Positions 11,849-31,973 of a stretch of DNA of 64,000 nt are shown here, in pieces. The translations under genes and the position numbers were made by a program. The stretch comes from Nocardioides glacieisoli (GTDB taxonomy: Bacteria > Actinomycetota > Actinomycetes > Propionibacteriales > Nocardioidaceae), in assembly GCF_004137245.1 (NCBI RefSeq), contig NZ_SDWS01000009.1:1-64000 (forward strand), written 5' to 3'. The notes under the pieces are model-generated. The model was not told where the DNA came from. It saw only the letters and a list, made by a program, of their open reading frames with translations, and ran no database searches. Each line of letters starts with the position of its first letter. The first letter of the stretch is position 1.

Positions 11849-12032
11849 TTAAGACGTTTTCACCTCCGCGCTGGTACGTGGCGGGAGCACTCCGGCCACT
11901 GTTGGTGTGGCACTTACCAACTGCAGTCCGTGCGCATGGTCATCCGGCCCGAACAGGCGATGACCGGAGCCAAGCACGAGCGGGTAGATCATCAGGAGCA
12001 ACTCGTCGATTAAGCCACAGCGACCATCCTCA
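11849..12032 (-). pseudogene. dihydrofolate-reductase-like (RibD C-terminal domain) remnant, minus strand
   Basis: On the minus strand, codons read GLIDELLLMIYPLVLGSGHR followed by LFGPDDHAHGLQLVSATPTV. This is the last third of DHFR/RibD-like proteins, where the DEL-LMIYP-V-GSG-RLF pattern is highly conserved. The expected last strand (ATYQRGGE) is present, but in the next frame. The N-terminal two thirds are missing. It is a different copy from the remnant on the plus strand just to the left. Confidence 0.7.
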
Positions 12033-12053
12033 ACCGGAAACTGAACCGTCGCA

Positions 12054-12791
12054 TCAGACTTCGATCGTTAGCCCGGGGGTGGCCACGGCGATCTCTCCGG
12101 AGAACTCTCGGCGAGCCGCCTGCCGCAGCCGGTCAGTGCTCTCGCCGGGCCAGACGTGGCACAACACCAGCTGGCCGACTCCTGCCTCGGCGGCGACCTT
12201 TCCGCGGTCGCGGGCGCTGCTCAGTCCCTCGGCCGACTCCGTGGGTACCTCGTCGACGAAGCTCGCTTCGGCCAGGAGTGCGTCGGCACCGCGAGCCAGG
12301 TCGACGGTGTCGGGACTCGCACCCGCGTCGCCGGTATAGGCGAGCAGGCGACCGCCGGCGCTAATGCGGACACCGAGGTTCGAGACGAAGTGCGGGAGCT
12401 CGACCGAGGTTACCGTGAAAGGACCGATCACCACCTCTTGCGCCGATAAGAGAACGGTCAGGGTCCAGTCATCGGCGAGCATCGCGCCGTCGAGACTCAG
12501 CAGCGCGTCGAGCGCGCCCGAGGGTGCGTGGATAGGCAGCTGGCCGGGTGGGTCGTCAGCGAGGTGCCGCGCGCGCAGCAACGGGTTGAGGTCGGCGCAG
12601 TGGTCGGCGTGACCGTGAGTGACCAGCACGGCGTCGACGTCCTCGGGCGAGACGTACTCCACCAGCCGGGACATGGTCGCGTGCCCTGGGTCCATCAGCA
12701 GGTGGAAGTCATCGTGCTCGACCAAGTAGCCGCTGCACGCTCGCTCCGGGGTGGGGTACCCACCCCCGCCTCCCAGCACGGTCACTCGCAT
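12054..12791 (-). CDS. MBL-fold metallo-hydrolase
   Basis: A 245-residue protein starting MRVTVLGGGGGYPTPERACS. The zinc motif is THGHADHCAD near residue 60. Further ligands fit the His of VELPHFVSN, the Asp of LAYTGDAG and the His of LVLCHVWPG, an order typical of the RNase Z-like branch. Members cleave phosphodiester or ester bonds; the substrate here is unknown. The gene stands alone between decayed sequence and the truncated DUF202 gene. Confidence 0.88.
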   Translation of the reverse strand: MRVTVLGGGGGYPTPERACSGYLVEHDDFHLLMDPGHATMSRLVEYVSPEDVDAVLVTHGHADHCADLNPLLRARHLADDPPGQLPIHAPSGALDALLSLDGAMLADDWTLTVLLSAQEVVIGPFTVTSVELPHFVSNLGVRISAGGRLLAYTGDAGASPDTVDLARGADALLAEASFVDEVPTESAEGLSSARDRGKVAAEAGVGQLVLCHVWPGESTDRLRQAARREFSGEIAVATPGLTIEV

Positions 12792-12931
12792 GCTTGGAGG
12801 ATACGTCGTTCACGGGGCATCACTTGTTGTGGTGCTTGCCATTCTCGAGCGTCAGCGACCCGAATGTCATGACGTTGTCGGCGCACCCCCGACGTTTGGG
12901 CTCTGGGTCGGGGCTCACCGAGTGCAGGTGG

Positions 12932-13241
12932 TCAGCGGCCTTGACCGTTCGATGCTTCTCCGATGATCAGCAGAATCAGTGATGCGAGCACGGCGAGGGT
13001 CAGGACCGTCGAGGCCATGGCGGGGCCGCGTCCGCGGCTGCCGGTGGTGTACTCGCCGTGCTCGATCTCGCGGTTGACACGGCGGTAGCGTCGGGTGCCG
13101 TAGAACAGTCCGGCAACGCCGACCACGATGAGCACTGCCCCGGCGGCGATGGTGTAGATGGTGGTGGCGTCGCCGAAGGTGGCCACGGCCAGGCCGAGCA
13201 CCATGACCCCACCCGCGGTGCGGAGCCAGGCTAGGTAGGTG
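12932..13241 (-). pseudogene. DUF202-like membrane protein truncated by an IS remnant
   Basis: The frame reads TYLAWLRTAGGVMVLGLAVA, a second helix IYTIAAGAVLIVVGVAGLFY, a basic loop GTRRYRRVNREIEHGEY and a third helix MASTVLTLAVLASLILLIIG. That is the three-helix layout of DUF202/YidH-type inner-membrane proteins. The N-terminal residues before the conserved R-TYLAW are replaced by IS sequence reading from the other strand at about 13240. An ATG at 13261 keeps the frame open, so a hybrid protein might still be made. Confidence 0.65.
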
Positions 13242-14173
13242 CAAGTAGTAGCCGCGTTCATCGACGCCAACCGCGACGATGTCGTCGCGGGCCGGCGCCT
13301 GGGGGTCGGGGTCATCTGCCGCATGCTGCAGGTGGCCCCGAGCAGCTACTACGAGTACAAGAACCGCCACCCTCCGCCCGTGTCCAGCGCGACGCCGTCA
13401 TGGCCCCGGTCGTGCGTCAGCTCTGGGAGGACAACTACCGCGTCTACGGGGCCCGCAAGATCTGGAAGGCCGCCCACCGTGGTGGCCACGACATCGGTCG
13501 CGACCAGGTCGCCCGACTCATGCGCGCCGACGGTATCGAAGGGGCCCGGCGCACCAAGCGGGTCCGCACCACCAAGCCAGACCCCGGTGCGCCACGCCAC
13601 CCCGATCTGGTGGGTCGTGACTTCACCGCTGCGGCACCTAACCAGCTGTGGGTCACCGACCTGACGTTCGTGCCGACCTGGGCCGGGATCGCCTACGTCT
13701 GCTTCATCATCGACGTATACTCCCGCACCATCGTCGGGTGGAGGGCCGCCTCGCACATCAGGACCACGATGGTCCTCGACGCGATCGAGATGGCCCGCTG
13801 GTCACGCGGCACCCAGCTGGCCGGGCTGCGGTGTCACAGCGACGCTGGGTCGCAATTTACGTCGATTCGGTATGGCGAACGCCTGGCCGAGATTGGCGCG
13901 GTTCCTTCGATCGGGGCCGTCGGAGATTCCTACGATAACGCTCTCGCTGAGACCGTGAACGGCTACTACAAGGCCGAACTGATCCGCGGCCCAGCTCGTG
14001 AAGGTCGGCCCTGGAAGACGGTTGAGGACGTCGAGCTCGCGACCCTGTCGTGGGTCTACTGGCACAACCACGAGCGCCTTCACGGCTACCTCGACGACGT
14101 ACCGCCAGCAGAGTTCGAGGAGACGTTCTACGCTCGAGCTAGGACCGACCAACCCCTGGTCGAAATCCAATAG
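13239..14173 (+). pseudogene. IS3-family transposase OrfB, frameshifted
   Basis: The first frame starts VVAAFIDANRDDVVAGRRLG, with VICRMLQVAPSSYYEYKNRH, the usual OrfB N-terminus. Near 13378 the coding shifts to the frame of ARVQRDAVMAPVVRQLWEDN, which continues to the stop. The DDE integrase core is complete: Asp in LWVTDLTFV, Asp in CHSDAGSQFTS, Glu in DNALAETVNGYYKAELI. The break is inside orfB, so it is not the programmed orfA-orfB frameshift of this family. Confidence 0.85.
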
Positions 14174-14204
14174 CCCGAGCCTCCATCAGACCCAGGGCGA
14201 GTCA
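13239..14204 (+). mobile_element. IS3-family remnant, left end and orfA missing
   Basis: It contains the orfB transposase (frameshifted) and the right terminal repeat at 14177-14204, which reads gagcctccatcagaccca and ends gagtca, a typical IS3 right end. The left end and orfA are deleted at about 13240, where the DUF202 gene begins. The element cannot move by itself. Confidence 0.8.
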
Positions 14205-14340
14205 AGGGTCCCCGACGCCGCAGCCTCGACGTGAGCCGACGAGTCCACATCCCAACCACCTTCGAAACTGGTGCAGTCTCTGGGCGAGCTGATCGCCCGA
14301 GGTCCCAGGAGACCCGTCCGCAGGCGCTTGCGGAATGGGG

Positions 14341-14475
14341 TCACGCGCCGGAGGTTTGATGCCGCTCCTGTTTGAGTCCAGGAGGACGAGCACCATGCCA
14401 AGAAAGATCGATGACGAGCTGAGATCCGGTGCTGTGCGACCGGTCAATGATCATCAGGGCGAGTGCTCCTCGACC
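14341..14475 (+). mobile_element. left end and start of orfA of a second IS3-family copy
   Basis: Positions 14341-14368 (tcacgcgccggaggtttgat...) match the complement of the right repeat at 14177-14204 at about two thirds of positions. An ATG at 14395 opens MPRKIDDELRSGAVRPVNDH, the standard OrfA N-terminus, and the match ends after about 27 codons. Coming after an IS3 right end, the order right end - 136 bp - left end implies two copies in tandem or a rearrangement. Confidence 0.65.
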
Positions 14476-14615
14476 GCGGACATCTGGCCAGCTCACGTTG
14501 TCGGTCGACGGCCATGGGATCGCACGCCCCGAAATTCCTCGGGGTACTTCCGCGGGTGCTCCCCGTGATGCTGACGCGAAGCACGGCTAAACGACCAGCT
14601 CGCCCTGCAGGCAAG

Positions 14616-14642
14616 GGTCGTCGCCGCTGGGGCGACGACCCT
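14616..14642. terminator. strong hairpin terminator after the sigma-factor operon
   Basis: An 11-bp perfect stem (gggtcgtcgcc / ggcgacgaccc) with a 5-base loop lies 52 bp downstream of the last gene of the minus-strand operon that ends at 14695. There is no long T-run, as is usual in GC-rich actinobacteria. It could act in both directions. Confidence 0.75.
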
Positions 14643-14694
14643 TGGCGGCGTCCCTGCACTCGTGAGTCCGGATGATCTTCAGGGACCACGCAGG

Positions 14695-15168
14695 TCAGCT
14701 GACGGTCAGGGTCAGCTTCTGCATCACGGGCATCTCGCCGTCGAGCACCGGCAGGTCGACGCCTTCGACATCGGGGAACTCGTAGGCCCCGATCTCGCCG
14801 TCGTCGACGTGCAGCATCGGCCAGTAGTCGCCGGTGGCGACGGTGTCGTCGAGCTCGACGACCACGTCACTGCTCTCACCCTGCTCGACCTGGACGGTGC
14901 CGACGACCGGTCCGGGTTTGCCGTCGACGTCACTGTGCACTGCGATCCAACCCTGCTCGACACCCTCGAGGCTGACGGAGCTCACGGTCAGGGTGCTGCC
15001 GTCACCGTCTTGGTCGGCTGCCTCGACCGTGCCGGTAGTCGTGGTGGAAGAATCCTCGGCGGGGACAGCGGTGGACGACTCGTCGTCGCTACCACAGCCG
15101 GCCAGGACGAAAGCCAGGAACAGGCTCGAGATGACAGCGGCGCTGCGCCGCGCGGTCAGGTTACGCAT
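14695..15168 (-). CDS. exported lipoprotein with DUF7282-like domain
   Basis: A 157-residue protein from the ATG at 15168, set by the RBS aaggagatcacc. A lipoprotein signal peptide (MRNLTARRSAAVISSLFLAF, then VLAGC) places it on the outer face of the membrane. After a Ser/Thr/Asp-rich linker, the domain reads EGVEQGWIAVHSDVDGKPGP, a central acidic strand region and YWPMLHVDDGEIGAYEFPD. This resembles DUF7282, often found beside cupredoxins. It is the last gene of the operon. Function is unknown; a role with the neighbouring copper protein is inferred. Confidence 0.8.
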   Translation of the reverse strand: MRNLTARRSAAVISSLFLAFVLAGCGSDDESSTAVPAEDSSTTTTGTVEAADQDGDGSTLTVSSVSLEGVEQGWIAVHSDVDGKPGPVVGTVQVEQGESSDVVVELDDTVATGDYWPMLHVDDGEIGAYEFPDVEGVDLPVLDGEMPVMQKLTLTVS

Positions 15169-15194
15169 GGTGATCTCCTTGGTGTGGCTTTTCA

Positions 15195-15623
15195 TTACTG
15201 AACGGTCAGAGTGCCGGTCATCGACGGGTGGATCTCACAGACGAAGTCGTAGGTCCCGGGCTTGTCAGGAGCGGTAAACGTGCCCGGCGAGCTGTTGTCG
15301 AAGCTGCCTGTGTCGAAGGAGCCGTCGATCGCGGTCAGGGTGTGCGCTTCGGCGTCGCTGTCGACGACCTCGACCTCTTGGCCAGGCGCGACGGTGAGCG
15401 GCGCGAATGCGTAGTCCGCCACGGTGTAGGCCACCCCCTCCGGCAGCACATCACCCGACGCGCCGTCCGGCGTAGCGGACGAGACGGGGGCGGGCGAGGA
15501 CGAGGGCTCCTCCGACGAAGACCCACAGGCCGTTAGAAGGAAGAGGACAGGGACGATCAGAGCCTTCAGGACGTGTCGCGAGACCTGGGGTCGGTCCAAC
15601 GGAGCCGGACGGATCACTCTCAT
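15195..15623 (-). CDS. cupredoxin-domain lipoprotein
   Basis: A 142-residue protein. The signal peptide ends in the lipobox LLTAC (Cys 33), followed by a Ser/Pro-rich linker. Residues about 63-142 form a plastocyanin-like fold with a complete type 1 copper set: His 94 (AEAHTL), Cys 129, His 132 and Met 135 (FVCEIHPSM). It should be a membrane-anchored extracytoplasmic blue-copper electron carrier. Its ATG overlaps the upstream gene stop by 4 bp and the next gene follows after 26 bp, so it is in the middle of the operon. Confidence 0.9.
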   Translation of the reverse strand: MRVIRPAPLDRPQVSRHVLKALIVPVLFLLTACGSSSEEPSSSPAPVSSATPDGASGDVLPEGVAYTVADYAFAPLTVAPGQEVEVVDSDAEAHTLTAIDGSFDTGSFDNSSPGTFTAPDKPGTYDFVCEIHPSMTGTLTVQ

Positions 15624-16315
15624 GCGGGGGCGCCGTTGATACGGAAGTCCACGGTCTCGACCTTGGAGGCGACGCCGATGGCTTCGAGGTCGCGGCGGTC
15701 GATGCGTCCGTCGGCGTTCTGGTCGGTGACGACGGCGGGTGCGTCGTTGTAGATGCCGTCGTGGTTGAGGTCGTCGATGACGGCGACGGTCAGCGTGGTG
15801 GTGACGTCCTTGCCGGCGATCGGGGCGCCGACGATCCAGGTGTCCCAGATCTCGACGTCGTTCTTGGAGCGGTCGGTGACTCCGGTGAGGTTGAACAGGT
15901 TGGCCAGGTTGGTTCCGGGCCCGGAGAAGCCGGGGAGGGTGCTGTTGGTGGTGCTGGTGAGCACGACCAAACCGGGCATCCGGTCGTCGGCACCGGTCGA
16001 GAAGCTACCGGGGAAGGGAGCGGTGTTGTTGTGCGCGGCCGGCCCGGTCAACTGGTTGGCGGTGAAGCCGGTGCCTGCGAGCGAGGTGTCATTGAACTCG
16101 ATCTCGAGGTCGACGAACCACCCGGCTCCGGCGATGCCGGCGTTGTCGCCGCGTGCGGGGGCGAGGATCTCGACGTCCACGGACTTGGCCGCGTCATGGC
16201 GGTCGCGGTGCCCAGGCCCAGGGGCGGCGGAGGCCCCACCGGCGGTGGCGGCGTAGGTGCCGCCGAGCGCCGCGGTCACGGTGAGGGCGGTGAGGGCAGT
16301 GGTCATCTTCTTCAT
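15620..16315 (-). CDS. secreted protein with EF-hand-like C-terminus
   Basis: A 231-residue protein with a cleavable signal peptide (MKKMTTALTALTVTAALGGT, AxA site before APGPG). The middle, with EILAPARGDNAGIAGAGWFV and many Thr/Asn residues, has no family I recognise and is probably beta-rich. Near the C-terminus are two Asp-rich loops, DLNHDGIYND and DQNADGRIDRRDLE, which look like EF-hand/dockerin calcium loops. It lies 58 bp after the anti-sigma gene and overlaps the cupredoxin gene, so it is part of the sigma operon and probably its main extracellular product. Confidence 0.75.
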   Translation of the reverse strand: MKKMTTALTALTVTAALGGTYAATAGGASAAPGPGHRDRHDAAKSVDVEILAPARGDNAGIAGAGWFVDLEIEFNDTSLAGTGFTANQLTGPAAHNNTAPFPGSFSTGADDRMPGLVVLTSTTNSTLPGFSGPGTNLANLFNLTGVTDRSKNDVEIWDTWIVGAPIAGKDVTTTLTVAVIDDLNHDGIYNDAPAVVTDQNADGRIDRRDLEAIGVASKVETVDFRINGAPA

Positions 16316-16373
16316 TGGTGGGTCCCTTTTCGTCGGATGTCACGCAGGGGTACGCCGTCGCCGGCGGATCGGT

Positions 16374-17027
16374 TCACCGGGTAGTGGCGGAGATCACGAG
16401 ATCACCGTCGGAGTCGGTGACCCGCACCTGGGCGACATCGCGCGTGACGAACGCCGAGGCCCCGGTCACGCGCGCTTCGCCGTTGCCGGTCGATCCCCAA
16501 GTGGCGACCTGCTGGCGCTCTCCTTCGGGTGAGACCAGCCAGGCGACGAACTGCTCGTCTTGTGGGAGCCCCCGCAGGTCGAGCTCGACCGACGTGCCCC
16601 ACGGCTTGGCGCTCAAGGAGGCCGCACCGGTGGCGCTCACTCCCGCCGGTGCGCTCAGGGCGAGAGTCGTAGCGAGGGGTGCGTCGGGTTCGAGGACCAC
16701 CGCCGTGCCGACACCCGCTCCCGCCACCAGCACGACCGCGGCGGCAGCGGTGAGGAGCAGCCGGCGACGATGCCGACGGGTCCGCAGGGCTCCGATCGCG
16801 TCACCCAAGGCAGCATCGGAGGTTTCGCGGTGTGCTGATGACGGCGCCCCGGCCCGCAGCAGCGCCGGCAGCCCGGCGTACGTCGCGAGCTCGTCGCGGC
16901 ACGAGGCGCAGGTCGGGAGATGGGCCTCGAGCCGAGCCCGGTCGTCGGCGTCGAGACCGCCCAGGACGTAGGGGCCCAGCAGCTCGCGCAGCCGGGTGTG
17001 AGCGCGGTCCTCCTCGTGCTGGTTCAT
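16374..17027 (-). CDS. anti-sigma factor, RskA-type with zinc finger
   Basis: A 217-residue protein. The N-terminal domain (residues 1-75) has the ZAS zinc-finger pattern in LEAHLPTCASCRDELATYAG. A single membrane helix follows at about 88-108 (LLLTAAAAVVLVAGAGVGTA), then an extracytoplasmic RskA C-terminal domain ending SDGDLVISATTR. It would hold the sigma factor encoded upstream at the membrane and release it after regulated proteolysis. The gene overlaps the sigma gene by 4 bp. Confidence 0.9.
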   Translation of the reverse strand: MNQHEEDRAHTRLRELLGPYVLGGLDADDRARLEAHLPTCASCRDELATYAGLPALLRAGAPSSAHRETSDAALGDAIGALRTRRHRRRLLLTAAAAVVLVAGAGVGTAVVLEPDAPLATTLALSAPAGVSATGAASLSAKPWGTSVELDLRGLPQDEQFVAWLVSPEGERQQVATWGSTGNGEARVTGASAFVTRDVAQVRVTDSDGDLVISATTR

Positions 17028-17611
17028 CGCTCGACTCCCATCTCTTCGAACGCGGTCCGCAGGATGCGGATCGCGTAGTACGAGCGTGACTTCACGGTGC
17101 CCGGGCGCAGCCCGAGGGTGCTGGCGGCCTCGGTGACGGTGGCGCCGCGGTAGTAGAGCTCGTCGACCACGGCCCGGTGCTCGGGTGAGAGCCGGTCCAG
17201 TGCCTGCTCGACGACATAGGCGTCGACCAGCGCGTCGGCGCGGTCACCGACCGACTGGGCTGCCACGGTGTCGTCGTCGCCGATGAGTCGTGGGCGGCGC
17301 TCGTCGGCGCGCCACAGATCGATGACCAGGTTGCGGGCCACCGCGAACAGGTAGGCCCGCGGATCACCGCGACTCGGATCGATCCTGTCGAGGTTGCGCC
17401 AGCCGCGCAGCATCGTCTCCTGCACGACGTCCTCGGCGCGGCCCCGGTCATCGACCAGGCGCAGCACGAAGGTCATCAGGGCCGTCCCGTGCCGTAGGTA
17501 GAGCTCGGTCAGCACTCGCTCATCGGCCCCGGCCGACCTACCGGGTGCCCGCGAGCCGGGGAGCAGCGATCTCACGGGTTTGGGTACGACCCGCTTTCGG
17601 GATCGGTTCAC
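17024..17611 (-). CDS. ECF sigma factor (SigK/SigL-like)
   Basis: A 195-residue protein with region 2 (LRLVDDRGRAEDVVQETMLR, GWRNLDRIDP, YLFAVARNLVIDLWRADERR) and region 4 (LDRLSPEHRAVVDELYYRGA, TVTEAASTLGLRPGTVKSRS). The first 25 residues are basic and may be non-native; an internal start is possible. It is paired with the overlapping RskA-like anti-sigma gene and probably directs its own operon. Confidence 0.9.
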   Translation of the reverse strand: MNRSRKRVVPKPVRSLLPGSRAPGRSAGADERVLTELYLRHGTALMTFVLRLVDDRGRAEDVVQETMLRGWRNLDRIDPSRGDPRAYLFAVARNLVIDLWRADERRPRLIGDDDTVAAQSVGDRADALVDAYVVEQALDRLSPEHRAVVDELYYRGATVTEAASTLGLRPGTVKSRSYYAIRILRTAFEEMGVER

Positions 17612-17635
17612 CGTGTCGCGCCGTGCACGACGGCT

Positions 17636-17651
17636 CCGTGAGGGCTCACGG
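17636..17651. promoter_or_regulatory. inverted repeat between hydrolase and sigma genes
   Basis: An exact 7-bp inverted repeat (ccgtgag / ctcacgg) with a 2-bp centre covers the end of the hydrolase gene, 25 bp before the sigma start. The loop is too short for an RNA terminator, so a DNA-binding site is more likely. The binding protein is unknown. Confidence 0.35.
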
Positions 17652-18299
17652 GGCAGCGAAGCGCTTGAGGCGTTGGAGCATCGCGTCGAGGACCGGACCG
17701 GCCTGGTCTGTGGCGAAGATGTTCTGCGCGTGGGCCGTGCCCGGCAGGATCGTCACCTCGTTCTCCTCACCGGGGGAGGACGCGGCCAGCTCCGTCGAGA
17801 CGTTGGCCACGGGCTCGTCCTCGCTGGCCACGAAGAGCTTCGGCTCCTCCCCGAGACCGTCGACCGTTGCGTTCGGCGATAGCAAGATCAGCTGATCGGC
17901 CAGCGATGGGTCCTGGCTCGCGAGATCGAGGATGGCGTCGGCCCCAGCGCTGGCCCCGACGAGCGCGACGTCGGCGACTCCCTCGCCCTGTAGCTGTTCC
18001 ACGGCGTCGCGAATCGCATCGGGGTCGATGTCCTCGACAGCGATCACGCTCGCTCCCTGGTCGGCGATCGCGACGGCTTGCTCCTCCCAACTGGCCGCGT
18101 TGAAGGCGGCGCCATGAGCGAGGACAACTCCGTAGTCTCCCTGGCCCCACCTCGACGCCGGGGCGCCGGCGACGGAGATGGTCTGCCCTGAGGAGTCACC
18201 GGTGGAACCGGTGCTGGCCGTCTCCGGCGATCCTCCGCAACTCGCCAGGGCCAGGACAAGGACCGGTGCGAGTGCCGTTCTCTTCAGGGTTCCGAGCAT
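17646..18299 (-). CDS. alpha/beta-hydrolase lipoprotein
   Basis: A 217-residue protein from the ATG at 18299; the ATG at 18308 is an alternative. A lipobox (LALASC) follows a short hydrophobic signal. The hydrolase core has YGVVLAHGAAFNAASWEEQA, the nucleophile elbow GASAG, an acidic residue in FVASEDEPVANV and the catalytic His in PGTAHAQ. It is a surface-anchored serine hydrolase of unknown substrate. It sits 34 bp upstream of the sigma gene on the same strand and may be the first gene of that operon. Confidence 0.85.
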   Translation of the reverse strand: MLGTLKRTALAPVLVLALASCGGSPETASTGSTGDSSGQTISVAGAPASRWGQGDYGVVLAHGAAFNAASWEEQAVAIADQGASVIAVEDIDPDAIRDAVEQLQGEGVADVALVGASAGADAILDLASQDPSLADQLILLSPNATVDGLGEEPKLFVASEDEPVANVSTELAASSPGEENEVTILPGTAHAQNIFATDQAGPVLDAMLQRLKRFAAP

Positions 18300-18393
18300 G
18301 TCCACCACACTAGGTCGCTGTGCACGGAATGCTCATCTGTGTGACCGTCCCTTGCCCGCCACGCGTAAGCCGTCGTACACCACGCCTGTGGAC

Positions 18394-19116
18394 TCAACTG
18401 TGGGCTGTTCGCCCGCAGAGATCTGCGGCTCGTTCCAGAGCGGCGGTGGTTCGCTGGAGGGCTTCCTGGCGCCGGTGTCCGTTGGCAGGTGAGGGATGGG
18501 GAACGGCCAGGGTCGGGACGACGACCGGGTGCTCGGCGAGCGTGAGGTACCTCATCCACCCTTCAAGTGCCGCGCCGCCGAAGGTCACGACCACCCGGAG
18601 GTCGACCAGTTCGGCGAGCAGCGCGCTCAAGGCCGGCCGGGCGTCTTCCAGGTCATCGACCCGGGGGGCGCGGAGTCGACCTTCAGGTCCGGTCAGGGCC
18701 CAGGGGACGACGTTCCACCGCAGGCAGCGAGCCTGGTCGAGATTGGAGGAGGTCAGCGCCCGGTGAACCTGTCGGGTGGTGGGATCGTCGTTGTCGAGCG
18801 AGCTGAAGCCGAGGTCGCCCGCGGCGACCGTTCTGGGGCCGGGCGCCTCCATCAGTAGCAGCACCTGGGCCTTAGTTCCTGCACCGTCGGGGTCGAACCA
18901 GGGCACGAACCTGGAATTGCTCGGACCTTCTAACCGCCACCGTTCGGCCAGCTCGTTCAAGCGGCCAACCGGGTCGTCGTGGACGCGCGCTCGTTTGCTG
19001 GCAGGGTCAGGCAGCACGGTGTCCGCTCCAGCCCACGGGCGCAACACCGACAGCCAGGCAGATGCCCGCGAATCCGGCGGCCACCGGGAGGGGGAACGCT
19101 TGCTCATCCCGTACAT
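18394..19116 (-). CDS. uracil-DNA glycosylase-like superfamily protein
   Basis: The protein has the fold start RFVPWFDPDGAGTKAQVLLL, MEAPGPRTVAAGDLGFSSLD, then CLRWNVVPWALTGPEGRLR and a late strand VVTFGGAALEGWMRYL with PHPSPANGH. These match the GxDPG-like, NxxPW and H(P)SP motifs of UDG-like enzymes. The catalytic Asp of classic UDG is not clear, so activity is uncertain. The start is doubtful: the first 30 residues are atypical and a GTG at 19017 would give a more usual protein. Confidence 0.7.
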   Translation of the reverse strand: MYGMSKRSPSRWPPDSRASAWLSVLRPWAGADTVLPDPASKRARVHDDPVGRLNELAERWRLEGPSNSRFVPWFDPDGAGTKAQVLLLMEAPGPRTVAAGDLGFSSLDNDDPTTRQVHRALTSSNLDQARCLRWNVVPWALTGPEGRLRAPRVDDLEDARPALSALLAELVDLRVVVTFGGAALEGWMRYLTLAEHPVVVPTLAVPHPSPANGHRRQEALQRTTAALERAADLCGRTAHS

Positions 19117-19226
19117 GCGGCGGCGACGTCACAAGAGAAACCCTATGCCGAACCAGCGGTGAGCCATGTGCCCGCACCCGGCTCCACTTCGTGGGCCACC
19201 AGTTCATTGTGGAGGCGCTCTGGTGG

Positions 19227-19540
19227 TCAGCGCTCAGCCGCACGCGCGATCGCGACGAGGTCACGCACGGCCCCGGCCGGCGGGTTCTTGGTTCCGACCC
19301 AGACGGCGCGGAAGTACCGTCGCAGATCGAGGTCCAGTACCGCCACGACGCTCAGGCTCCCGGAATCCACGTCGCGCGCGACGACGCGACGGCACCGCCG
19401 GCGCTGATGGCGAGCAGCACGTCCCACTGCGACGTGAACAAGGAAGGCAACCGGTGGACCGTGCCGGTGAGCCTGTCACCGGACGTATCGGGATCGATCG
19501 GCAGATCGCCGACGTCGGGGTAACTATTTTCGGGCACACG
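19227..19540 (-). pseudogene. LysR-type regulator, C-terminal fragment with frameshift
   Basis: One frame has LTGTVHRLPSLFTSQWDVLL and AISAGGAVA, and after a shift near 19390 the other frame has SLSVVAVLDLDLRRYFRAVW and VGTKNPPAGAVRDLVAIARA. This order (SGQGVA-like loop, then the L-L-W strand) is the last part of LysR ligand domains. The HTH and most of the effector domain are absent. Confidence 0.55.
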
Positions 19541-19544
19541 AACT

Positions 19545-19563
19545 CCTACCTGTCTCAGGTAGG
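19545..19563. promoter_or_regulatory. palindrome next to the LysR fragment
   Basis: cctacctg-tct-caggtagg is an exact 8-bp inverted repeat with a 3-bp centre. It could be an orphan operator or a weak hairpin. No intact gene starts beside it. The rest of 19564-19817 shows nothing recognisable. Confidence 0.35.
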
Positions 19564-19817
19564 GACTGTTGGTGGCCTGCCGCCACGGTTGTCGGCGAGC
19601 CCCACCGCCATCGTGTGCGCTCATTCTAACCAACTGCGACACTCACCGGCGAACCCGGACACCCCGAACACATCAGCGCGGACCGCCCAGCGTTTGGGAT
19701 CCCCGACGATCACGCCGAAGGGTCGGGCCAAGTTGGGCCAGGTTGGGCGCAGGAGTGCCCGAACCACACGACCCACCCACCGCGGGGTTGGTCGAACCGA
19801 CCACCACCCCTTGCCCG

Positions 19818-20885
19818 TCATGCGCCGGTGAGCTGTACGCCGGCGTAGGCGACCCCCGCGACGAGGACCCATGACATGAGGCCGAGCACCAGCGCGCGGC
19901 CTCCGGTGCGCCGCAGCACCGGGAGGTGGATCCCGGTGCCCAGACCGACCAGGGCTGCGGCGAGCAAGACCTCCTGGAGGACCTTCGCGCCGTGCAGGAC
20001 CGGATCGGGCAGGAGCCCGGTGCTCGCGACGGCGATCGCTGCCAGGAAGCCGGCGACGAACAGGGGAAGCAGCGGTGGGCGGCGCCCCGTCGCCGCCGCG
20101 GGGGTGCGACGCCGCAGCGCAACGGCGGTCCCGGCGACCAGCGGGGCGAGGAGCACGACGCGGCTGAGCTTGACGACGACCGCGGTCGTCAGGGCTCCCG
20201 GTACGCGGTCGGCTGTCGCCACGGTCTGGCCCACGTCGTGCACGCTTGCGCCGACCCAGCTGCCGAACGCAGCAGGGTCGAGCCCGAGGGGCTCACGAAG
20301 CAGCGGGAGCAGCACGATGGCCAGGCTCCCGCACAACGTGACGAGCGCGATTGCGACCGCCGTGTCGTCCTCGTCCCCGCCGGCGACCTCCTCCATCGCG
20401 GCGACGGCCGAGGCGCCGCAGATCGAGAAGCCGGTGGCGACGAGCAGGGACCGGGCCGGCGGCACACCCAGCAGCCGCCCAAGCAGGCGCGTTCCGGTGA
20501 ACGTGACCGTGACGGTGGTGACCACGACGAGGGCACCGCGCGGCCCCAGGTCGAGCAGCTGTTGCAGCCCCAGCTGCAGGCCAAGCAGCACGACGGCCAG
20601 GCGCAGGAACCGGTGTGAGGCGACGTGGGTGCCGACGTGCAGGGAGGGGTGGTGCAGCCCGATGTTGACCGCGATCGCGCCGATGACCACAGCAACGGTG
20701 GAGGGGTTCACCGCTGGGACCAAGGCATGCACGCCGAACGCGACGCCGGTGGCGGTTGCGACGGCGAGCAACCCAGGTACCGGACTGCGGTGCCCGGGCT
20801 CGGGAGTGGGCGGGCAGGACGGGCGGCAGCGGCTGCCGGTGCGGTGTCGGTGGACAGGGGCTTCGTGGGCCGTGGTCACAGGCAT
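19818..20885 (-). CDS. YeiH/UPF0324 family membrane protein
   Basis: A 355-residue protein from the ATG at 20885, chosen for its RBS gaaggaga; a longer frame reaches 20939. Eight to ten hydrophobic helices follow a hydrophilic N-terminus, with family motifs LRLAVVLLGLQLGLQQLLDL, ATGFSICGASAVAAMEEVAG and GSWVGASVHDVGQTVATADR. The family is proposed to export sulfite/sulfate or a related anion, but this is not well proven. The divergent LysR gene is the usual partner. Confidence 0.88.
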   Translation of the reverse strand: MPVTTAHEAPVHRHRTGSRCRPSCPPTPEPGHRSPVPGLLAVATATGVAFGVHALVPAVNPSTVAVVIGAIAVNIGLHHPSLHVGTHVASHRFLRLAVVLLGLQLGLQQLLDLGPRGALVVVTTVTVTFTGTRLLGRLLGVPPARSLLVATGFSICGASAVAAMEEVAGGDEDDTAVAIALVTLCGSLAIVLLPLLREPLGLDPAAFGSWVGASVHDVGQTVATADRVPGALTTAVVVKLSRVVLLAPLVAGTAVALRRRTPAAATGRRPPLLPLFVAGFLAAIAVASTGLLPDPVLHGAKVLQEVLLAAALVGLGTGIHLPVLRRTGGRALVLGLMSWVLVAGVAYAGVQLTGA

Positions 20886-20992
20886 TCTCCTTCGTCGGTA
20901 CTTCCAGCCTGCGCCGGCAGACGGGCGCTCGGTAGACATCCTGGATCGATGACGTCATCCACCGGACTGATGGCGGGCTCTAGAGTGGGTCG

Positions 20993-21937
20993 ATGACTCT
21001 CACCCGGGTGCCCGACCTCGACACCCTGTCGCTGCTCCTCGAGATCGCTGCCAGCGGCAGCCTGAGCAAGGCCGGTGCCTCCCGCGGGCTAAGCCAGCCT
21101 GCCGTGAGCGCACGGGTGCGCGGACTCGAACGGCTGGTCGGGTTCGCGGTCCTCACTCGCTCGGCCCGTGGCTCGAACCTCACCCCCAACGGTGCACTGC
21201 TGGCCGAGTGGGCACGTGGGGTCCTCGCTGCTGCGGACGTCCTCGAGGCGGGCATCGCGTCCCTGCGCAGCGACCGCATCGCGCGGCTGCGGGTCGCGGC
21301 GAGCTTGACCGTGGCCGAGCATCTACTGCCGAGCTGGCTCGTCGTGCTGGCCGCCACGCATCCGGACACCGCCGTCAGCCTGACCGCAGGCAACAGCGAC
21401 ACCACGGCGGCCGCGGTTCTCGCGGGCGACGCCGACCTCGGCTTCATCGAGGGCCCCGACCTTCCCTCCGGCCTGTCTGCTCAGGTCGTGGCGACCGACC
21501 GGCTCGTGGTCGTCGTCGCGCCCGCTCACCCGTGGGCCCACCGCCGTAGATCGGTAGAGGCTGAGGAGCTGGCCGCAACGCGGCTGGTGCACCGCGAAGC
21601 CGGGTCGGGGACCCGCACCGCGCTGGACCGAGCCCTGACCCCGTTCGGCACCCCCACCCAACCCCTGCTCGAGGTGTCGACCAGCAGCGGCGTCCGCTCC
21701 GCAGTCATCGCCGGAGCCGGCCCGGCCGTGCTCTCCGACCTGGCAGTGCACGACGACGTCGCAGCCGGCCGCCTAGTCCAGGTCCCCGTTCACGGAGTCG
21801 ACCTCGACCGCTCGCTACGTGCCGTCTGGCTCACCGGCCAGCGACCGGTCGGCCCGGCAGAGGACCTGCTTCGGCTTGCAGTCCCCGAGAGGCCACGAGC
21901 CCGGCGTCTACCCCGGAGCAGAGCGCGAGTTCGTTGA
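20993..21937 (+). CDS. LysR family transcriptional regulator (YeiE-like)
   Basis: A 314-residue protein. The winged HTH at residues 7-65 reads LDTLSLLLEIAASGSLSKAG, ASRGLSQPAVSARVRGLERL. The periplasmic-binding-like effector domain includes TVAEHLLPSWLVVLAATHPD and IAGAGPAVLSDLAVHDDVAA. It diverges from the YeiH-like gene (107 bp between starts), an arrangement known for YeiE/YeiH and CbbR-type pairs. Confidence 0.9.
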   Translation: MTLTRVPDLDTLSLLLEIAASGSLSKAGASRGLSQPAVSARVRGLERLVGFAVLTRSARGSNLTPNGALLAEWARGVLAAADVLEAGIASLRSDRIARLRVAASLTVAEHLLPSWLVVLAATHPDTAVSLTAGNSDTTAAAVLAGDADLGFIEGPDLPSGLSAQVVATDRLVVVVAPAHPWAHRRRSVEAEELAATRLVHREAGSGTRTALDRALTPFGTPTQPLLEVSTSSGVRSAVIAGAGPAVLSDLAVHDDVAAGRLVQVPVHGVDLDRSLRAVWLTGQRPVGPAEDLLRLAVPERPRARRLPRSRARVR

Positions 21938-22271
21938 GGATCGCTGGCGCTACCGTGACTCGCGCGAGCTGGTCAACGCGCCACAAACTACTGGTCACAA
22001 AGAGCGCGACCGCAGCAGGATCGGCTCGCGGAGCGTGCCAGTGCAGGATCGGCTCGCGGAGCGCGCCAGTGCAGGATCCGTCATCGGTACGCGCACTCAA
22101 CGCCAGCCGGACTTACAACCCGCCCCAGCACGCCGGCACCTAACACGACTTCGCATCACGATCACACGCATCGAGGACTACGCGGCGGCCGGAGCGGCAC
22201 CGTTGTGCTTCGACCGCCGCGCTCGCTCCGGCTACCCCACGACTCCAGCGGTGGCGTGACTCAGCCGGTGG
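21938..22271. other. intergenic region, no gene seen
   Basis: Apart from the tandem repeat at 22015-22078 I see no gene, RNA or terminator. Both flanking genes point into it, so it is a convergent spacer. Confidence 0.5.
22015..22078. repeat. 28-bp tandem repeat, 2.3 copies
   Basis: Unit one at 22015-22042 and unit two at 22043-22070 begin gcaggatcggctcgcggagc and differ by one base (gt versus gc before gccagt). A third partial copy (gcaggatc) follows. The repeat is too short for CRISPR and lies between convergent genes. Confidence 0.85.
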
Positions 22272-23447
22272 TCAGAGTGCCGTGTACAACGCCTTCTCGA
22301 AGTCGCCGTAGAGCTTCCAGGCCTCATGCTCAGTGATGAAGGGCAGCGAGTTGGTGTAGATCGAGGCGCAGATCCCGGTGCTCCGGTCGATGAAGAAGTG
22401 GGTGTTGAACAGACCGGCCCAGGCGCCGCTGCCTGCCTTGCGGCCGCCGGGTGAGTCGGCGCCGTTGAGCATCAGGCCGTAGCCCCACTTCCAGCCGGGA
22501 CCGGCGTGGAGCGTGTCGGTGATCGCCGGGTCGGCGGTTGCGATCTCGGCGGGGAAGTCGAGGTCGCCGATCTGGTTGCTGAACGCCGCGTCGACGGTGC
22601 CCTCCTCGAGGATGCGGGTGCCGTCGAGCTCCCCGCCGCGGAGCAGGGCGCGCTCGAAGCGGATGTAGTCGCGCGGGGTGGAGTAGAGGCCGTGGCCGCC
22701 GGCCCACCAGTCGGGCTCGGGGTTGAGGATGCTGCCGGCCGAGCCCCACGACCCGTCCTCGCCCTTGACGTGGACCGTCACCGCGTTGTCGCGCTGGGCG
22801 TCGCTGGGGTGGAAGGTCGTGTTGCTCATGCCCAGGGGGCCGGCGATGCCCTCCTCGATCACCGCATCGAGCTGCTTCCCAGCCACCGCCTCGACGACCC
22901 GGCCGAGCCAGTCGGTGTTGATCCCGTAGACGAACTTCTCGCCGGGGTGCGCGGTCATGGGCGCCTTGAAGGCGTCCATCGAGCCCGGCACCACGTTGGG
23001 GATCCCGGTCGCCGCTTCGTACTTCACGAGGTCGTCGTTCCAGAACCAGTAGCCCAAGCCGCTGGTGTGGGTCACAAGCTGGTGGACGGTCGGCGGAGTA
23101 CGTGGAGCGACCAGGATCGGCTCGTCGCCGTCCCAGCCTTCAAGGACCCTCACGTCCGCGAAGTCCGGCACGTAGTCCGCGACGGGGGCGTCGAAGTCGA
23201 GGTCGCCCCGCTCCTTCTGCTGCAGGGCGGCGGTGGTGCACACCATCTTGGTCATGGACATGATCCGGAACTGGGTAGACGTCCCGACCGGGTCGTCGGA
23301 CTCGCCGGCGATCCGCACGCCAGCCCCACCCTCGTAGAAGACGCCGTCGGCATCCGCGGCGATGGCGGCGACGTGCGGCACCGCCCCGTTGTCCACGCCC
23401 TGCCGAAGCACGGCGTCGATCGCCGCGCCGTCGATGGTCCTCGTCAT
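22272..23447 (-). CDS. serine hydrolase, class C beta-lactamase/esterase family
   Basis: A 391-residue protein without a signal peptide. The Ser-x-x-Lys site is SMTK (FRIMSMTKMVCTTAALQ), the second motif Tyr-x-Asn is YGIN (EKFVYGINTDWLGRVVEAV), and the C-terminal region has AGPGWKWGYGLMLNG. The length and the absence of secretion suggest an EstB-like cytoplasmic esterase or peptidase rather than a beta-lactamase. It diverges from a second hydrolase gene at 23638; both may act on related esters. Confidence 0.88.
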   Translation of the reverse strand: MTRTIDGAAIDAVLRQGVDNGAVPHVAAIAADADGVFYEGGAGVRIAGESDDPVGTSTQFRIMSMTKMVCTTAALQQKERGDLDFDAPVADYVPDFADVRVLEGWDGDEPILVAPRTPPTVHQLVTHTSGLGYWFWNDDLVKYEAATGIPNVVPGSMDAFKAPMTAHPGEKFVYGINTDWLGRVVEAVAGKQLDAVIEEGIAGPLGMSNTTFHPSDAQRDNAVTVHVKGEDGSWGSAGSILNPEPDWWAGGHGLYSTPRDYIRFERALLRGGELDGTRILEEGTVDAAFSNQIGDLDFPAEIATADPAITDTLHAGPGWKWGYGLMLNGADSPGGRKAGSGAWAGLFNTHFFIDRSTGICASIYTNSLPFITEHEAWKLYGDFEKALYTAL

Positions 23448-23637
23448 GATGCGTCCTCCTCGTGGTGGGCGCCGGCGTTACCGGTCGCTGTGGCTCACCG
23501 TGCTCCTCCGGCGGCGCGCAGGGAACCGCCGTCGCGACGCAGTTCGGTGTGCTCGGACCGCCATCTGGCGGGTCGCATCTCGCGAGTTGCACATTCGTCG
23601 GGTCGACCCCTGTCGCGGACGTCCGTCCGGGGCTAGC

Positions 23638-24609
23638 GTGACGAGGGTGACGAACGTCGTACGCCCCGAGTTCGACCCCGAGCTCAAGGCCGGACTGGCC
23701 ATCGTGGGGGGCATGTTCCCGCCCACGATCACGCCCGACCTCATCGACTTCATGCGGGTGTCCTACGCCTCGGCCCCACTCGACGACCTCCTCGCCGAGC
23801 GCGGGATCGGACGGGTCGACCTGGAGGTGCCGGGGCACGAGGGGACTGCCTTGGCCGTCTCGGTGCTGCGACCGGCCGGGGCCACCTCCGGTCGCCCCGG
23901 AGTCCTCTACGCCCACTCCGGCGGGCTGATGTTCGGCGACCGGTTCAGCGGCATCGACCTGGTCCTCGACTGGGTGGACCGGCTGGGCGTGGTCATGGTG
24001 ACCGTCGAATACCGCCTCGCCCCCGAGTTCCCCGATCCCTATCCCCGCGAGGACATGTACGCCGCCCTCGAGTGGACCGCTTCCCACTGCGAGGACCTCG
24101 GGATCCGCTCCGACCGGCTGCTCGTGGCCGGAGCGAGTGCCGGTGGCGGGCTGGCCGCCGGCCTCGCCCTCGCTGCACGCGACCGTGGGGGACCGCGGCT
24201 GTGCGGCCAGGTGCTCGACTATCCGATGCTCGACGACCGGGGCACCACAGCGTCGACAGGTCAGTTCGACGGGATCGGCGTGTGGGACCGGGTGAGCAAC
24301 GAGACCGGCTGGGGCGCCCTGCTCGGGGCGCAGCGAGGAGGCGATCAGGTGTCGCCGTACGCCGCACCGTCGCGGGCCGACGACCTGTCGGGGCTCCCGC
24401 CGGCCTTCATCGACGTCGGGGCCGCCGAGATCTTCCGCGACGAGGCCATCGACTATGCCGACGCCATCTGGCGGGCCGGCGGCAACGCCGAGCTGCACGT
24501 GTGGGCAGGCGCGTTCCACGCCTGCGACATCTTCGCCCCGCACACAGCAGTCGGGCGCTCGATGATCCAGGCGCGCGACACGTGGGTGGAGAAGATCCTC
24601 GGTGACTGA
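23638..24609 (+). CDS. HSL-type alpha/beta hydrolase (esterase/lipase)
   Basis: A 323-residue protein from GTG 23638; a second in-frame GTG is at 23647. The oxyanion-hole motif is HSGGLMFGD in place of the usual HGGG, the nucleophile is GASAGG, Asp lies in the PAFIDVGAAEIFRDE region and His in FHACD. The strand VTVEYRLAPEFPDPYPREDM is a clear family mark. It is a cytoplasmic carboxylesterase of unknown substrate. The next gene starts 17 bp downstream, so it is co-transcribed with the PucR-like regulator. Confidence 0.88.
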   Translation: MTRVTNVVRPEFDPELKAGLAIVGGMFPPTITPDLIDFMRVSYASAPLDDLLAERGIGRVDLEVPGHEGTALAVSVLRPAGATSGRPGVLYAHSGGLMFGDRFSGIDLVLDWVDRLGVVMVTVEYRLAPEFPDPYPREDMYAALEWTASHCEDLGIRSDRLLVAGASAGGGLAAGLALAARDRGGPRLCGQVLDYPMLDDRGTTASTGQFDGIGVWDRVSNETGWGALLGAQRGGDQVSPYAAPSRADDLSGLPPAFIDVGAAEIFRDEAIDYADAIWRAGGNAELHVWAGAFHACDIFAPHTAVGRSMIQARDTWVEKILGD

Positions 24610-24626
24610 GCGGGAGAAGAGCTGAC

Positions 24627-25676
24627 GTGCAGGAGCTGTTGGGCCGCATCGCGCGTCTCGATCCCAGCGCCAGTCTGGGGTTGCGGGTGATCGCCTGTTT
24701 CGACGAGCTGGTCGTCGGCAACGTCAACACGCGTGGCCTCCTCGCCGCCGCTGCATCGCTGGCCGGGTGCTCGGCCGGCTTCCGCCAGGAGCACCCGCGT
24801 CGGGTGCTGCGCGTGAGTCCGCGCGGGAGCGTGGTGGACGGTGATCCGCCCGAGCTCGACGCCGAGTTCATGGCCCCCGCCTCGGACGGCCTGGTCGTCT
24901 GGCTCGAGCGCGAGGGTGAGGCGCTGCCCAACGACGCGATCACACTTGAACGGCTCGCGCTGGCTGTCCGGATTCGGCACGGTCGCGGTCGGCGCGACCA
25001 CGACAACCGGCGCCACCTCGGGCTGCTCACCGACCTCGACGTGGCCGCGGAGGAGAGGATCGCCGCGGCGGTCGCCCTCGGTCTCAGCGCCACCGGTCGC
25101 TACCGCGTGGCGGCCGCGCCGCTGTTCGCCGTGTGGGTGCGCCACCCGGACGGTCCGGAGGACGTCATTCCCACCCGGCACGGGCCCATCCACGCGATCG
25201 TCCTGCCCGAGTCCTACGACGCGTTCGAGGCCAGTCCCTGCGGGGTCGGGATGGTCAGCTCGGTCGACGAGCTCCACCACTCGTTCCGCACCGCGATGGT
25301 CGCGCTCCGGTTGTGCGCACCACCGGACGACGGCCTCGTCTGCGCCGACGTCTACGGCGGACTGATCGACATGCTGGCCGACACCCCGGAGGACGCTCAC
25401 CAGCCCGATGTCGCGCGGATGGATGACGTGGCGAAGCACCCGTGGGGTCTCACGACGGTGGCTGCCATCTTGGCGACCCAGTCGGTGCGCGAGGCAGCGC
25501 GCCGGGCTGGAGTACACCACAGCACGCTGAGCACCCGGGTGGATGTCATCTCCGCTGCCCTGGGCTTCGACCCGCTCGACGGGTTCGGTCGTGCCCGCCT
25601 CGGCCTGGCCTACCTCAGCCACCGCCTGCGCCGCTCGAAGGTGCTCGATCTACCTGCGCCACCCTTCGGCACCTGA
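24627..25676 (+). CDS. PucR-type helix-turn-helix regulator
   Basis: A 349-residue GTG-started protein. The C-terminal HTH (about residues 275-335) includes VAAILATQSVREAARRAGVH, HSTLSTRVDVISAALGFDP, with the late helix ARLGLAYLSHRLRRSK. The N-terminal part is variable and probably senses a ligand. It is the last gene of the pair with the HSL esterase and probably controls the divergent hydrolase genes. Confidence 0.78.
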   Translation: MQELLGRIARLDPSASLGLRVIACFDELVVGNVNTRGLLAAAASLAGCSAGFRQEHPRRVLRVSPRGSVVDGDPPELDAEFMAPASDGLVVWLEREGEALPNDAITLERLALAVRIRHGRGRRDHDNRRHLGLLTDLDVAAEERIAAAVALGLSATGRYRVAAAPLFAVWVRHPDGPEDVIPTRHGPIHAIVLPESYDAFEASPCGVGMVSSVDELHHSFRTAMVALRLCAPPDDGLVCADVYGGLIDMLADTPEDAHQPDVARMDDVAKHPWGLTTVAAILATQSVREAARRAGVHHSTLSTRVDVISAALGFDPLDGFGRARLGLAYLSHRLRRSKVLDLPAPPFGT

Positions 25677-26237
25677 CGAAATCGCGACACCGGCCGAGGC
25701 GACGCCGGTCGACACGATTGGTCAATCGGTTGATAAGCCACGTTACGGGCACTGACCGAGCGAGGGCCCATTCTCGCTGCGACGACATCCTGGCTGCTCC
25801 CGCTCGCCGGCATGTCTAGACGTCCCCGTTTGGCGAACCTCGACCGACAAGGCTCCCGGCCCAAGAGTCGTCCTCCCGTGTTCTGTCGCCGTTTGGCCCG
25901 TCCGGTGACTTGTTCCGGTGACGGACCCCTATCCGGACGAGCCAACGCATCCCCCCGAGTCGGACTCCCTACCCGAACTTCGAACGCCGTCCGCGACAGC
26001 GGCCCAGCCCGGATCGCCCTTCTTGAAGCTCCTCACACACTGTCCCGCCTTTTCTCACAATCTTCCTGTTCACACGTTCTCGGCCCTCCACCGCTCCTGC
26101 CGCTCACCCCAGTCCCCCAGTCCTCTCGCTGACCCTGCTCCCTTCCTTCTCCGTCTCCTCCATTCGCCACACACCTCTTTCATTCAGGTTCCCCCCTGGC
26201 CACTCGCGGCAGTTCGGGCGCCTTGGGGGGTGTGACG
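25677..26237. other. long intergenic leader of the relaxase gene; possible oriT region
   Basis: No gene is seen. At 25901-25922 the 9-mer tccggtgac occurs twice with 13-bp period. From about 26016 to 26200 the plus strand is strongly pyrimidine-rich: 26101-26160 has only 11 purines in 60 bases. The relaxase start follows directly. An origin of transfer usually lies upstream of a MobF relaxase gene, so this is the natural candidate, but no nic site was recognised. Confidence 0.45.
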
Positions 26238-29822: not shown

Positions 29823-29825
29823 GGG

Positions 29826-30716: not shown

Positions 30717-30912
30717 TGCCGCCGCTCCTTCCATCGTCCGGGCAGACGCCTGCCACGGTGCGGGCAGACCCGCTTCACTAGGTAGGTGTGCAGGCATGTC
30801 CCGATTTGGCCCGGAATCGCCGTACACACTGCCCATCTGTTGTCCGTGGTTGGTGGCATCTGTGCAGGTGGGAGTGCGAATCGCGCGATCTGGCCATCTA
30901 GATCCGGTCGGA

Positions 30913-30918
30913 TATCCT
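30913..30918 (+). promoter_or_regulatory. probable -10 box of the XRE gene (near-leaderless transcript)
   Basis: TATCCT lies six bases before the ATG at 30925. This spacing puts the transcription start on or next to the start codon, as in the leaderless mRNAs common in actinobacteria; no RBS is present. A -35 box is not clear. Confidence 0.45.
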
Positions 30919-30924
30919 TGGAGC

Positions 30925-31970: not shown

Positions 31971-31973
31971 CGA

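Follow-up and report, generated by a model that had tools for sequence, protein, structure and literature searches.

The described systems closest to the locus analysed here are SigL-RslA of Mycobacterium tuberculosis, SigK-RskA with MPT70/83, the RpoE4-SorT and SorAB modules of alphaproteobacteria, and YeiE-YeiH of Salmonella and Escherichia coli. The locus itself lies at positions 14695-18308 of a 64,000-nucleotide stretch of the genome of the soil bacterium Nocardioides glacieisoli (assembly GCF_004137245.1, contig NZ_SDWS01000009.1, positions 1 to 64,000; hereafter the window) and centres on an extracytoplasmic function (ECF) sigma factor, its anti-sigma factor and a secreted protein of 231 residues, hereafter sec231. 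SigL recognises a TGAACC -35 element, and SigK-RskA is likewise an ECF/anti-sigma pair with a secreted target. The respective reports describe RpoE4 of Sinorhizobium meliloti as a sulfite-responsive ECF26 factor that controls sorT and the pseudoazurin azu2, a cupredoxin (PMC3511301), name sulfite-responsive cognate ECF factors in two alphaproteobacteria, S. meliloti and Starkeya (PMC6527743), and give yeiE and yeiH of Salmonella as divergent genes, with yeiH as the main sulfite-resistance gene (PMC12880088). In the literature searched, sulfite-sensing ECF sigma factors are reported in alphaproteobacteria and none was found for Actinomycetota. We interpret the Nocardioides locus, with a probability of roughly 0.6, as part of a mobile envelope sulfite-defence cassette under a private SigL-like ECF sigma factor, with sulfite probably serving as its signal or substrate. 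By analogy, the system would work like the sulfite-responsive RpoE4-SorT and SorAB modules without being one of them.

The sigma factor (17024-17611, minus strand; Sigma70_r2 and r4) and the anti-sigma factor (16374-17027, minus strand) are encoded by overlapping genes, as are SigL and the zinc-finger membrane protein RslA. Their best PDB matches are this same pair: M. tuberculosis SigL for the sigma factor (6dv9_F, 1.1e-35; SigK is weaker, 4.8e-14) and RslA for residues 19-58 of the anti-sigma factor (3hug_B, 1.1e-5, the chain that partners a sigma fragment in entry 3hug). Both RslA and the anti-sigma factor of the window have an HxxxCxxC zinc-associated site (zf-HC2, PF13490, 1.1e-9) and a membrane helix, a single one in the window protein as judged by eye. 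The sigma factor scores 196.4 bits (3.4e-58) against NF007227, under the cut-off of 202 bits, and is thus SigL-like rather than SigL. The system further differs from SigL-RslA in its target, sec231, in having only two exact genomic sites, and in that no genes for polyketides or the cell wall were seen in connection with the window system. It differs from SigK-RskA in the weaker structural match and in that Pfam does not place sec231 among the fasciclin proteins.

The promoter site TGAACC-N16-CGTAC occurs on the minus strand at the sigma gene (17584-17610) and before sec231 (16350-16376), where its TGA is the stop codon of the anti-sigma gene. Both strands of the 4,577,250-base genome contain these two exact matches only, and the reversed pattern, searched as a control in the same 4,577,250 bases, gave none. 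Because the listed GTG start of the sigma gene at 17611 overlaps the promoter, a later start, at GTG 17575 (by eye) or at 17515 (gene call), is more likely. We followed the site through 43 loci, cited here by their L numbers, with sec231 start codons set by hand; the count omits L001-L009, which are duplicates of this cassette found when the genus was searched, and L045, L047 and L051, which are fragments or remote. Within 150 nt upstream of sec231 the strict site is present in 22 of the 43 loci (0.0025 expected) and a relaxed form, TGAAC-N17-CGT[A/C], in 28 (0.055 expected from shuffles). The relaxed site is missing before sec231 in L021, L031, L032, L034-L037, L040-L043, L046, L049, L057 and L059; some of these 15 loci carry one-letter variants, and two of them, L034 and L049, have the site upstream of a YncE/lactonase-type beta-propeller gene that precedes sec231, at distances of 65 and 59 nt. 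Such a propeller gene adjoins sec231 in L017, L030, L034, L049 and L082, and has its own sigma-type site in L017, L034 and L049. The strict site is kept even where no sigma gene is in reach, for example in L039 and L050. A sigma-type site is likewise found 64-88 nt before sec231 in L077, L078 and L079, and none in L080, L081 or L082. The sigma gene and its target thus share a single promoter type that is rare in this genome and recurs across species, as in an autoregulated ECF module. The sequence-only reading had taken the set to be driven by its own ECF sigma factor, which is borne out by the two like promoters, found nowhere else in the genome and retained ahead of sec231 at other loci. We consider it very likely, from the arrangement of genes and sites, that the sigma/anti-sigma pair drives the set, and private SigL-like regulation of sec231 appears highly probable.

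Sigma factor, anti-sigma factor and sec231 form the conserved core. The gene for sec231 is rare: 9 of 215 genomes searched in the genus have it, as do 4 of 396 in the phylum (its own genome and one partial match included), 1 of 295 in the family of G632 (the centre itself), and 4 of 259 and 4 of 255 in two further genome sets. The relatives within the genus that share this cassette are species of Nocardioides. Of 40 loci with a called sec231 gene, 29 have an ECF sigma gene no more than 3.5 kb away, upstream, downstream or divergent, and two gammaproteobacterial metagenome-assembled genomes are among the 29. An anti-sigma gene lies within the same distance in 28 of the 40, and L036 can be added. 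Among nine loci read later, sigma and anti-sigma genes accompany sec231 in L060, L077, L079 and L080, and L078, whose contig begins there, retains only the end of the anti-sigma gene. The sigma factors of L060, L077 and L079 are 47-51% identical to that of L042 and 36-43% to that of the window, and the sigma factor of L080 is 49% identical to that of L041; sec231 therefore accompanies several kinds of ECF factor.

By comparison with the 29 of 40 loci that have a sigma gene near sec231, the cupredoxin lipoprotein (15195-15623, minus strand; Cupredoxin_1, PF13473, 6e-7) and the DUF7282 lipoprotein (14695-15195, minus strand; PF23951, 2.4e-21) accompany sec231 in only 5 of 51 loci (L001-L003, L010, L011). 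The co-occurrence of sec231 and cupredoxin expected by the sequence-only reading is therefore not general, and a copper/calcium operon as a conserved unit is rejected. The copper/calcium module proposed there holds in part: the calcium side is supported by the conserved loops in sec231 (below), and copper may still play a role, as DUF305 genes recur nearby, but the sulfite-export-type genes are the more telling neighbours. The core is accompanied in L010-L017 by a gene of the uracil-DNA glycosylase (UDG) family and by the hydrolase gene.

In the window sec231 is encoded at 15620-16315 on the minus strand, and this protein has no Pfam or NCBIfam family and no sequence match in the PDB. The calcium-like loops of the sequence-only reading, DLNHDGIYNDAP and DQNADGRIDRRD, hold up in the alignment (A1), as their acidic and glycine positions are kept: D182, G187, D191, D198 and D209 are invariant in 36 of 36 rows, and D202 and G203 are present in 34 of 36, the row of L050 being left out of these residue counts since it is out of frame at its end. 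Matches to EF-hand families are weak among the 37 members, six to EF-hand_5 (best 1.5e-4) and one to EF-hand_1. Cysteine is absent from 34 of the 37 rows and none is conserved. A structural model built with the 37 sequences is a beta sandwich with a mean pLDDT (predicted local distance difference test) of 78.8 and low values in residues 1-41. Foldseek returned nothing at E 0.001 or better for this model; VIA-align paired it with an immunoglobulin (Ig) domain of Kit at Z 7.1 and with sulfite-oxidase dimer domains at Z 6.9 and below, all under the value of 8 below which a match may reflect a common arrangement only.

The neighbours of the core point to sulfite. In the window a YeiH-family exporter (19818-20939, minus strand; PF03601, 1.1e-59; TIGR00698, 5.7e-39, 134.3 bits, cut-off 232.6) stands back to back with a YeiE-like LysR regulator (20993-21937, plus strand; PF03466/PF00126; NF040786, 2e-43), their starts 53 bp apart. 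The regulator matches the YeiE model NF040889 at 3.2e-42 and 144.7 bits against a cut-off of 480 and is not an equivalog. The pair resembles YeiE-YeiH of Salmonella and E. coli in that a LysR gene is divergent from the gene of a PF03601 transporter. It differs in falling under the YeiE and TIGR00698 cut-offs, in being embedded in a sigma/sec231 cassette, and in that SLAC1 replaces the exporter in sister cassettes.

The idea of sulfite arose from reading the neighbours of sec231, before further loci were sought. Of 20 lineage groups, five have YeiH or SLAC1 within the stretch examined, against 0.17 expected (P 3e-7), a post hoc figure that uses per-genome counts of PF03601 and SLAC1 in 42 genomes entered by hand, merged split hits and hand-chosen lineage groups. 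The nine later loci include four with an exporter of YeiH or SLAC1 type (L057, L060, L077, L079), against 0.045 expected (P 1.7e-7) at the average exporter frequency of the initial 42 genomes, again from counts entered by hand, rather than from the later genomes' own counts; without L057, where the distance is 8.2 kb, the figure is 3 of 9 (P 1.5e-5). Three more were read later and stand outside the nine, namely L061 (an extension of L036), L062 (a twin of the window) and L063 (the contig of L051), and counting L063 gives 4 of 10. Pfam assigns SLAC1 and LysR in L017, PF03601 and LysR in L049, and TauE in L036 and L046.

The LysR proteins beside the exporters form one subfamily, 41-56% identical to the L010 protein, which includes the regulator of the window and adjoins YeiH in L010, L049 and L060, and SLAC1 in L012-L017, L036/L061 and L038, the SLAC1 gene of L036 lying about 1.7 kb into L061. 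As the same subfamily stands beside either exporter, it would be the exporter that is swapped and the regulator that stays. That SLAC1 exports sulfite we take from its presumed kinship with yeast SSU1, which literature titles name as a sulfite pump.

Single loci illustrate how variable the arrangement is. In L060 sigma, anti-sigma and sec231 genes are followed by a divergent LysR/YeiH pair 0.3 and 1.4 kb on, and in L079 the order is TauE/SafE, sec231, SLAC1 (0.4 kb on), sigma and anti-sigma, so that SLAC1 stands between sec231 and the regulatory pair. L057 is a conjugative plasmid of Paenarthrobacter with its PF03601-type transporter 8.2 kb from sec231. L049 has sigma, anti-sigma, propeller, sec231, YeiH and LysR genes followed by Pta and Xsc; its Xsc is above the curated cut-off (771.9 against 676.4), and the Xsc/Pta pathway frees sulfite from sulfoacetaldehyde. 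Pta and YeiH genes are likewise present upstream of sec231 in L021. In L077 sigma, anti-sigma and sec231 genes are followed by a SorA-like molybdoenzyme at 2.9 kb and by SLAC1 at 4.9 kb; genes for DUF305 and DUF4396 proteins lie between them. This sulfite dehydrogenase-like protein (PF00174 and PF03404; SorA model 1.5e-75, under its cut-off) is the only one near sec231 among the loci compared.

L077 thus places a SorA-like enzyme beside a module of this kind, as in the SorAB and SorT systems. Other likenesses to RpoE4-SorT and to SorAB of Starkeya novella are that an ECF/anti-sigma pair adjoins an envelope target and that the targets in S. meliloti include a cupredoxin. The ECF type is a different one, the conserved target is sec231, and the annotated stretch 12000-32000 of the window holds no sulfite dehydrogenase; tblastn with the enzyme of L077 found none in the whole window or in the other loci. 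A DUF202 protein (PF02656) is encoded at 12932-13324 of the window, and a similar-looking protein is found in the same place at L077:12018-12419, adjoining the SorA-like enzyme.

A further neighbour is the UDG-superfamily protein encoded at 18394-19116 on the minus strand (PF03167, 2.8e-9, 37.6 bits, above the cut-off of 24.3), which has no PDB sequence match. In an alignment of six rows (A2) its motifs EAPGP and HPSP are each present in five or nearly so, with the variants ESPGP and HPSQ. In L061 and L016 its gene overlaps that of the LysR regulator; in L010-L017 it lies beside the hydrolase gene. L016 has two copies (605-1192 and 3516-3934), of which one overlaps LysR and the other is broken into frames beside the hydrolase.

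A block of the window (14171-19393) recurs in Knoellia subterranea, which belongs to a different family. The two copies are 96.2% identical in DNA over 5226 bp, and judged by this identity the block has been transferred horizontally. Other Nocardioides (L012, L013, L014) match 15626-19404 at 90-94%. The Knoellia copy yields only a partial, short LysR match (tblastn) and has an ABC-type gene in the place of the exporter. The setting is island-like, with genes of insertion sequence (IS) families IS3 and IS30. An IS3-family integrase gene (13400-14173) ends where the stretch common to Knoellia begins, and L062, the close copy of the window, has additional IS-type genes within its cassette and close by. 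One plasmid record contains sec231, and no phage record does; 64 stretches of viral contigs matched a pattern and none was confirmed. An origin of sec231 from phages or viruses is rejected on these grounds.

We propose that the membrane zinc-finger anti-sigma factor would hold the sigma factor until an external signal sets it free, most likely sulfite itself or the reactive species that it forms with copper and oxygen. The freed sigma factor would transcribe from the TGAACC-N16-CGTAC promoters, serving its own sigma/anti-sigma genes first and sec231 second. The latter would be a secreted, calcium-binding, Ig-like protein, followed in the window by the cupredoxin and the DUF7282 lipoprotein. 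The YeiE-like LysR protein may control a sulfite exporter in the same island, YeiH in the window and SLAC1 in sister cassettes, and the exported sulfite would meet sec231 and its partners at the cell surface. Bisulfite deaminates cytosine to uracil, and the UDG-family protein could repair the uracil so formed. More tentatively, sec231 might found a new class of extracellular sulfite defence, in which a calcium-stabilised Ig-like protein handles sulfite or its radicals at the surface. A private ECF sigma factor would have it made when needed, and it would travel in a kit with a swappable sulfite exporter, the LysR sensor of that exporter and a UDG, across Actinomycetota and, with other ECF factors, in Gammaproteobacteria. 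If the sulfite reading is true, a family without a Pfam entry gains a function, and export, surface defence and DNA repair are joined in one sulfite response. The cassette, with one promoter, one secreted family and one exporter pair, lends itself to a direct test and offers a small, self-contained sigma/promoter pair.

Several observations weigh against sulfite defence. YeiH and SLAC1 are missing from the stretch examined in 15 of the 20 lineage groups, eight Streptomyces loci among them, from the Knoellia copy as far as its examined stretch extends, and from the later loci L059, L078 and the proteobacterial L080-L082. TauE/SafE alone shows no enrichment (seen at 2 of 42 loci against 0.49 expected) and was rejected as a signal in itself. 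The YeiH and LysR proteins of the window both remain under their NCBIfam cut-offs. CrcB, of the fluoride-channel family, adjoins SLAC1 in L012 (201-776) and L077 (16927-17729), so that another anion is possible. No kinship was found between the sec231 profile and the sulfite dehydrogenase-like enzyme of L077 (hhalign probability 0.1), and a relationship of sec231 to the sulfite-oxidase (Mo-co_dimer) domain appears unlikely, as the Z of 6.9 is weak and tied with those of unrelated Ig domains. None of four genomes with remote UDG relatives has an exporter or LysR neighbour; a constant association of UDG with exporters was accordingly rejected, and the link is therefore confined to the clade of the window. 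The existence of loci without an exporter, the arrival of the block in Knoellia without YeiH and the island-like setting with IS3- and IS30-type genes would equally be expected if exporter, LysR and UDG genes were separate defence-island cargo that travels with sigma and sec231 and shares no function with them. Such chance company is, however, quite unlikely to explain why two unrelated exporter families are linked to sec231 in several unrelated lineages and in differing gene orders, and the linkage persisted at the loci examined once the idea had been formed.

The main alternative to sulfite is copper, because DUF305 recurs near sec231 and copper catalyses sulfite oxidation. The sigma factor would then answer copper, the cupredoxin and sec231 would bind or oxidise it in the envelope, and the sulfite genes would be bystanders, or useful since sulfite turns Cu(II) to Cu(I). 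The cupredoxin of the window has type-1 copper ligands (H...CxxHxxM, by eye), but it is confined to 5 of 51 loci, and sec231, without cysteine in 34 of 37 rows, offers no conserved one. DUF305 genes lie near sec231 in L012, L014, L015, L036, L077 and L082, and one of this type is found at 653-1030 of the window, 13 kb from the cassette; the family is a common one, however. A RicR/CsoR-type repressor in L036 also speaks for copper, but it adjoins rhodanese/metallo-beta-lactamase and TauE genes and may be a persulfide sensor. SigL and Rip1 have been linked to metal homeostasis (PMC10449499), which keeps a copper or metal reading in play. We regard copper stress by itself as unlikely, and the copper and sulfite readings may both be true. 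The kinship with SigL and RslA, the closest solved relatives, would also suit a response to general redox or envelope stress. The sigma factor would in that case be set free when the HxxxCxxC zinc site is oxidised, and sec231 would serve as a structural protein of the envelope; oxidised RslA gives up its zinc and binds SigL less tightly (PMC2877774). A general stress factor should nevertheless have more than two genomic sites, and the repeated linkage to exporter and LysR genes would be left unexplained, which makes this decidedly improbable.

The six open reading frames at 14695-18308 are all on the minus strand in the order described earlier, and we regard them as genuine genes rather than chance frames because they are encoded again in other genomes. 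The outermost is an alpha/beta-hydrolase-like lipoprotein (17646-18308, minus strand), whose Pfam matches are to alpha/beta-hydrolase families only, all below curated cut-offs. Of what the sequence-only reading had said about the set, a single strand with overlaps (sigma/anti-sigma at 17024-17027, sec231/cupredoxin at 15620-15623, cupredoxin/DUF7282 at 15195), the gene families and the export of four of the six proteins (signal peptide or lipobox, by eye) were all recovered. A single six-gene operon was not, as the hydrolase gene lies upstream of the sigma promoter and sec231 has a promoter of its own. The strong hairpin described at the end of the set (14607-14649, minus strand; arms 14607-14625 and 14631-14649) is indeed stable (-36.4 kcal/mol, z -3.1), but it has no T tract and is missing from the list of the terminator scan. 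The two sigma-type promoters, the UDG-superfamily gene and the divergent YeiH/LysR pair (19818-21937) go beyond that description.

Some further neighbours were seen at single loci or in single groups. A PAP2/vanadium-chloroperoxidase-like gene (cluster c4; PF01569 in the L023 copy) follows sec231 in eight Streptomyces loci (L020, L022-L027, L029) and precedes the sigma gene in L042. At the Coriobacteriia-like locus L059 (9236-9916) sec231 adjoins hydrogenase/NADH-dehydrogenase-like genes, with no sigma gene, promoter or exporter, and fits neither the sulfite nor the copper reading. The window itself contains, at 19391-19729, a remnant-like match to the CrcB part of L012.

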